Of a DNA stretch of 64,000 nt, positions 40,311 to 41,125 are shown one piece after another (the first letter of the stretch is position 1; each line of letters begins with the position of its first letter). The stretch lies in contig PHBO01000009.1 of the NCBI GenBank assembly GCA_002840645.1, positions 1-64,000 of the forward strand. The letters are read 5' to 3'. The notes beneath the pieces were generated by a model. That model saw only the letters and a list, made by a program, of their open reading frames with translations, searched no databases and had not been told where the DNA came from. This stretch comes from Candidatus Cloacimonetes bacterium HGW-Cloacimonetes-3 (GTDB lineage: Bacteria; Cloacimonadota; Cloacimonadia; Cloacimonadales; Cloacimonadaceae). A program made the position numbers and the translations under genes.

Positions 40311-40386
40311 GGGGCTATAGCTCAGTTGGTAGAGCGATTGGTTCGCAATCAATAGGCCAGGGGTTCGAATCCCCTTAGCTCCACCA
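40311..40386 (+). tRNA. tRNA-Ala (anticodon CGC)
   Basis: All arms fold: acceptor GGGGCTA/TAGCTCC, D stem GCTC/GAGC, anticodon stem ATTGG/TCAAT with loop TTCGCAA, and T stem AGGGG/CCCCT. The acceptor contains the G3-U70 wobble, the alanine identity element. CCA is encoded. Confidence 0.95.
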
Positions 40387-40448: not shown

Positions 40449-40527
40449 GGAGGATTAGTCCTAATTGGTAAGGCAGCGGTCTTGAAAACCGCCGGGTTAT
40501 GCCCATGGGGGTTCGAATCCCTCATCC
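40449..40527 (+). tRNA. tRNA-Ser (anticodon TGA), 3' acceptor end missing
   Basis: The body folds well: acceptor 5' strand GGAGGAT, anticodon stem GCGGT/ACCGC with loop CTTGAAA, a serine-type long variable arm (GGG..CCC) and T stem GGGGG/CCCTC. The 3' acceptor should read ATCCTCC then G and CCA, but the sequence stops matching after ATCC and continues directly into the D-side of a tRNA-Gln. Three acceptor bases, the discriminator and any CCA are absent. Confidence 0.75.
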
Positions 40528-40597
40528 AGTCGCCAAGGGGTAAGGCAGCAGGTTTTGGTCCTGCCATCCGGGGGTTCAAATCCTCCCTGCCCAGCCA
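40527..40597 (+). tRNA. tRNA-Gln (anticodon TTG), first four acceptor bases missing
   Basis: The 3' side is complete: anticodon stem GCAGG/CCTGC with loop TTTTGGT, T stem GGGGG/CCTCC, acceptor 3' strand CTGCCCA, discriminator G and CCA. The matching 5' strand should be TGGGCAG. Only CAG is present, preceded by ATC that belongs to the tRNA-Ser end. The two genes share the C at 40527. Confidence 0.75.
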
Positions 40598-40618: not shown

Positions 40619-40692
40619 AGGGATGTCGTCTAATGGTAGGACAGCGGATTCTGGTTCCGTATGTGAGGGTTCAACTCCTTCCATCCCTGCCA
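40619..40692 (+). tRNA. tRNA-Gln (anticodon CTG)
   Basis: The acceptor AGGGATG/CATCCCT pairs perfectly, the anticodon stem is GCGGA/TCCGT with loop TTCTGGT, the discriminator is G and CCA is encoded. This intact glutamine tRNA reads CAG and cannot by normal rules read CAA. Confidence 0.94.
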
Positions 40693-40697
40693 ACTAT

Positions 40698-40728
40698 GCC
40701 TCGGGGTTCGCCCGGAGGCTTTTTTTTT
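40698..40728 (+). terminator. Intrinsic terminator of the tRNA cluster
   Basis: GCCTCGGG pairs with CCCGGAGGC (one bulged G) around a short GTTCG loop and is followed by nine T residues. Confidence 0.92.
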
Positions 40729-40754
40729 ATAGCTATACTTGAAGTAGTTAAGAA

Positions 40755-41125
40755 TTAAGGGCTAGGATTACTTTTTAACTTGCGTTTTGAGGTGATTAGT
40801 ATGGAAGAAAGAAGTTTGATAAGTTCCTCGCAATCTTTGTGAATGGATTCGAAATGAAGAGCTTCAATTATTCCCACTTGTTTTAACAAGCTTAGCCATT
40901 AGGATGTTTCCCAAGCTTCTCTATATGTATACTTACCCTTGAGATAAACTCCTTAGATGATTGTGCACCAAGAGCTTCTTCAAAGTCTGCTCCAATAGAT
41001 TTGCCACTCTTACGTATCTGTCCTGCAAGTATAAACTCTTTCTTCTCATCCACAAAGTAACGGTTAAGTTTGTAAATTCCCTCAGCAAAACTAAATGCCT
41101 TTTCAGCAGTAACATTCTGCTTCAT
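40755..41125 (-). pseudogene. Four-helix-bundle (S23/IVS-type) protein, frameshifted and nonsense-mutated
   Basis: The N-terminal 72 residues (AFSFAEGIYKLNRYF, RKSGKSIGADFEEALGA) match the small four-helix-bundle proteins related to 23S rRNA intervening-sequence ORFs. The open frame then ends early at 40892. One base out of phase, the family C-terminus continues as EKAWETS-stop-WLSLLKQVGIIEALHF and on to a stop at 40755-40757. One single-base deletion plus one nonsense codon (where the family has Tyr) explain this. The full span, 371 nt, is not a multiple of three. Confidence 0.82.

Follow-up and report, generated by a model that had tools for sequence, protein, structure and literature searches.

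The 64-kb window, the whole stretch of DNA analysed here, carries a plus-strand tRNA cluster in which two genes meet without their facing ends. tRNA-Ser(UGA) (40449-40527) opens with GGAGGAT, and its matching 3' strand is reduced to ATCC (40524-40527, within CTCATCC), leaving the gene without its last three acceptor bases, discriminator and CCA. One C is common to both genes at the junction (40527-40528), and the letters after 40527, AGTCGCCAAGG, are part of tRNA-Gln(UUG) (40527-40597). This second gene begins at CAG (40527-40529), its first four bases (TGGG) being gone, and ends in CTGCCCAGCCA at 40597, with CTGCCCA-G-CCA at 40587-40597. Both genes are intact in relatives.

The last gene of the cluster, tRNA-Gln(CUG) (40619-40692, plus strand), is intact by both ARAGORN and Rfam, and a terminator-like hairpin with a T run (40698-40729, plus strand), read from the sequence by eye, closes the cluster. 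By the same two programs an intact tRNA-Ala(CGC) (40311-40386, plus strand) lies directly 3' of valS; the order recurs in two named Cloacimonadota MAGs (L164 and L165), and the two genes form a natural pair. Directly after the cluster, on the minus strand, 40755-41125 holds a small gene whose product belongs to the 23S rRNA-intervening sequence family (PF05635). It carries a frameshift and an in-frame stop and may be either a pseudogene or a site of further sequence errors.

An earlier sequence-only reading of 40449-40597 gave the letters and coordinates correctly, including the shared C, as direct reading of the sequence confirmed, and was right that tRNA-Gln(CUG) at 40619 is intact. Its claim that tRNA-Ser(UGA) and tRNA-Gln(UUG) lack their facing acceptor ends agrees with the Rfam model, which matches both only in truncated form, the former over model positions 4-67 (34.5 bits) and the latter over positions 5-66 of 71 (37.7 bits). 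These are the lowest-scoring of the 42 tRNA matches in the genome, the other 40 reaching 47.7-75.8 bits. ARAGORN calls tRNA-Ser(UGA) in the window at 40449-40531, only by running on into the glutamine sequence, and makes no call there for tRNA-Gln(UUG). The 64-kb window contains no N letters.

The four-gene cluster of Cloacimonadota relatives

Among Cloacimonadota relatives, ARAGORN finds the order Ser(UGA)-Ser(GCU)-Gln(UUG)-Gln(CUG) in 27/27 fully assembled clusters, a count that leaves out two loci whose contigs end or begin inside the cluster. The window resembles this cluster in gene order and in its near-identical tRNA sequences, with the tRNA-Ser(UGA) stretch before the junction sharing 99-100% identity with many relatives. 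Alignments of relatives run up to the C at 40527, break off, and pick up again at the same C after a gap. In the 19 relatives measured, the two junction points lie 135-234 bases apart, with a complete tRNA-Ser(GCU) between them in every case (19/19). By this comparison the window differs from the four-gene cluster in lacking ~150 bases, comprising the whole of tRNA-Ser(GCU) and the facing ends of both its neighbours. The initial description of two neighbours fused through loss of their spacer thus holds for the junction, which is real in the sequence as given, but not for the extent of the loss, since the hole took a whole third gene as well.

The fused junction occurs in none of the other 49 genomes of the family (50 including the window's own) and has no match in 84,980 species genomes when 0-30 bases are allowed at the junction, a collection from which the genome's own record may be absent. 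In tblastn searches, whose set-up was checked with valS, the window genes surrounding the cluster were not found beside it in congeners; because flanking gene order is variable among congeners, flanking synteny adds no evidence.

The tuf cluster and the tRNA complement

The window belongs to contig 13 of a 97.5% complete draft assembly of 32 contigs totalling 2,675,438 bases. Its valS is most similar to those of Candidatus Cloacimonadota draft genomes, which places the organism in that phylum. The assembly carries another lesion of this type in the tRNA cluster before tuf (G000:C28:258844-259094; L001:1501-1751). All four genes of that cluster, Thr(UGU)-Tyr-Gly(UCC)-Thr(GGU), stand in order in 26 of 28 relatives, where tRNA-Tyr runs on and is followed by tRNA-Gly(UCC) and then a spacer. 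In the window's genome, by contrast, Thr(UGU) is followed by a Tyr gene that breaks off after CCTC and then by Thr(GGU), with Gly(UCC) absent. Its letters pass from tRNA-Thr(UGU) into tRNA-Tyr up to GGAGGTTCGAATCCTC, continue as AAGATAATGTGGATTTAA and enter tRNA-Thr(GGU), so that tRNA-Tyr(GUA) stops one base short of a full T stem, with all later parts of the gene missing. In the congener G005 a closely similar spacer, AAAGATTAGTGGATTTC, directly follows the CC of tRNA-Gly. As at the Ser/Gln junction, the end of one tRNA and all of the next are gone, and neither lesion is present in any relative compared.

The single-contig congener G008 (2,246,820 bases, 46 tRNAs) encodes one each of tRNA-Ser(UGA), tRNA-Ser(GCU), tRNA-Gln(UUG), tRNA-Tyr(GUA) and tRNA-Gly(UCC). 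Measured against its tRNA set, the window's genome misses or breaks exactly these five, together with tRNA-Ile(GAU) and tRNA-Ala(UGC). The last two usually reside in rRNA operons. A 16S search, which succeeded in no more than 9 of 14 control genomes, gave no match in the window's assembly; the combined absence of 16S, tRNA-Ile(GAU) and tRNA-Ala(UGC) is consistent with an unassembled rRNA operon.

Searches with a tRNA model and at the DNA level recovered no spare copies of the five tRNAs, an absence that refers to a 97.5% complete assembly. With the missing Ser/Gln stretch of G008 as query, the matches in the window's genome were limited to both flanks of the junction and fragments of other tRNAs; with the tuf stretch of G008, they were limited to other glycine and arginine-type tRNAs. 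The assembly contains none of the intact copies required by one explanation first put forward for the junction, a true deletion offset by genes elsewhere, and the proposed genome-wide hunt for further tRNA-Ser(UGA) and tRNA-Gln(UUG) genes, which would have marked the junction as a harmless relic, returned none.

Partially encoded neighbours of this kind recall the edited overlapping tRNA genes of Lithobius forficatus mitochondria, which are likewise adjacent and have incompletely encoded acceptor ends (PMC4284800). Such post-transcriptional completion of overlapping tRNAs is known from mitochondria and, according to the same review, has not been observed in either bacteria or archaea; E. coli failed to process an overlapping test transcript correctly (PMC4284800). 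The present case differs in its bacterial genome, in the absence of an entire additional tRNA gene, and in the complete stems that every relative encodes. Neither editing of the acceptor stems nor a joint precursor, as initially suggested, is sufficient here, because tRNA-Ser(GCU) and tRNA-Gly(UCC) are wholly absent from the assembly and a gene that is gone cannot be edited into being. That the pair forms a working overlapping precursor whose stems are filled in post-transcriptionally, in the manner of some mitochondria, is hardly conceivable.

Codon demand and the deletion alternatives

The codons served by the five tRNAs are in normal use: per 16,115 codons in the long ORFs of the window, there are 697 Tyr, 623 AGU/AGC, 117 UCA, 212 CAA and 260 GGA codons. 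Under standard decoding, tRNA-Gln(CUG) does not read CAA, UCA and AGY are beyond tRNA-Ser(GGA) and tRNA-Ser(CGA), and GGA is beyond tRNA-Gly(GCC) and tRNA-Gly(CCC). tRNA-Tyr(GUA) is the sole tyrosine tRNA. With these codons normally used and five tRNAs missing from an otherwise near-complete (97.5%) assembly, a cell whose genome read precisely as assembled would not be expected to survive.

A real chromosomal deletion would have to be tolerated through intact tRNA copies lying in the few percent of the genome left unassembled, or on an element outside the bin. Some DNA is missing from an assembly that is 97.5% complete in 32 contigs, the one-base microhomology at the junction would also fit a natural deletion, and the frameshift and in-frame stop in the neighbouring PF05635 gene make true decay nearby conceivable. 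Such a deletion is nonetheless improbable, requiring two independent losses in essential single-copy tRNA clusters with the rescue copies unassembled both times, when the complete congener G008 holds one copy of each gene and no relative shares either lesion. The more specific proposal that the chromosome truly lacks both segments, and that an extrachromosomal element left out of the assembly provides five isoacceptors, the cell's only tRNA-Tyr among them, is extremely improbable.

Junction reads could be real without lethality in the majority if the deletion were confined to a minority of the DNA molecules or cells, or to chimeras formed during amplification, and the consensus adopted it. This mixed population would have to be hit at two sites at once, and we consider it highly improbable.

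Assembly of the tRNA clusters

Of the three explanations first offered, assembly collapse has the strongest support, chiefly from the comparable lesion in the tRNA cluster before tuf. We consider it very probable that the fused pair is an assembly artefact, and we infer a false join or unmarked gap as its cause. The organism most likely carries an ordinary Ser(UGA)-Ser(GCU)-Gln(UUG)-Gln(CUG) cluster, from which the consensus would have skipped ~150 bases between the end of tRNA-Ser(UGA) and the start of tRNA-Gln(UUG); it would have skipped again in the tuf cluster, from the T stem of tRNA-Tyr(GUA) to the end of tRNA-Gly(UCC). The comparisons show what is missing, that such a loss occurs at two places in this assembly, and that no other copies are assembled. 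An assembly fault is likely because the tRNA sequences are nearly identical across species of the family, the type of sequence over which metagenome assembly becomes tangled, and near-identical tRNA genes of co-occurring relatives probably entangled the assembly graph here and led to the false join. The first account thus identified the junction and named assembly collapse correctly but was incomplete, as three genes are hit here and two more at the tuf site.

Draft assemblies of relatives also end in these clusters. In G005, one contig starts inside the T arm of tRNA-Gln(UUG), one starts inside tRNA-Gly(UCC), and a third ends inside tRNA-Thr(UGU); contigs of this congener therefore break inside the same two stretches that are missing from the window's genome, which indicates that assemblies break at these places. 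A contig of G015 ends in tRNA-Ser(GCU) and one of G048 starts just before it, contig ends within the cluster of which a rough estimate for ~60 drafts would place a few by chance. Where the contigs of relatives stop, the window's assembly is joined without N.

A further congener, G007 (98% complete), gave only weak matches to the cluster region, the best at E 3.9e-12. The Ser/Gln cluster seems to be absent from this draft too, a further sign of drafts losing the cluster.

Two features count against the artefact reading. The junction has no run of N, and the joined ends have only about one base in common, so the fault was not the simple collapse of a long repeat. Local deletion-type misassembly in MAGs offers the nearest parallel, with lesions at conserved sequence common to co-occurring relatives, rRNA-operon tRNAs and 16S missing as well, and contigs of congeners breaking at the same places; in contrast, the gap here is closed without N and so mimics a gene fusion. 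No paper describing exactly this fault emerged from a literature search on tRNA misassembly in MAGs.

The Ser/Gln pair is almost certainly a false join in a metagenome assembly and not a fused tRNA, an editing substrate or a relic. As an ordinary four-gene cluster with a hole, it has no biological import of its own, and its interest lies in the caution it carries: in a species-representative draft, 97.5% complete, five essential tRNAs are missing from two sites with not a single N to mark the gaps. Such silent gaps can mislead MAG-based studies of tRNA loss, codon usage or the genetic code, and paired lesions in tRNA clusters offer a simple check for false joins of this kind.

An extra tRNA-like gene lies on another contig of the same genome (G000:C30:131472-131552, minus strand; L070). 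ARAGORN calls it tRNA-Arg(UCU), with no encoded CCA. At 77-83% identity to tRNA-Ser(UGA) of other genera, it clearly descends from a tRNA-Ser(UGA)-type sequence; it was rejected as a substitute for tRNA-Ser(UGA), its anticodon reading UCU and its anticodon stem being mispaired. The gene was not found in congeners and is probably a decayed or element-borne copy. Beside it, also on the minus strand, lie genes for a DUF4062 protein (L251:10934-12310) and for a protein of 680 aa that has an HD-like motif, HDVGHLPFSH, but no Pfam match (L251:8863-10905), which may possibly form an inserted defence or mobile island.
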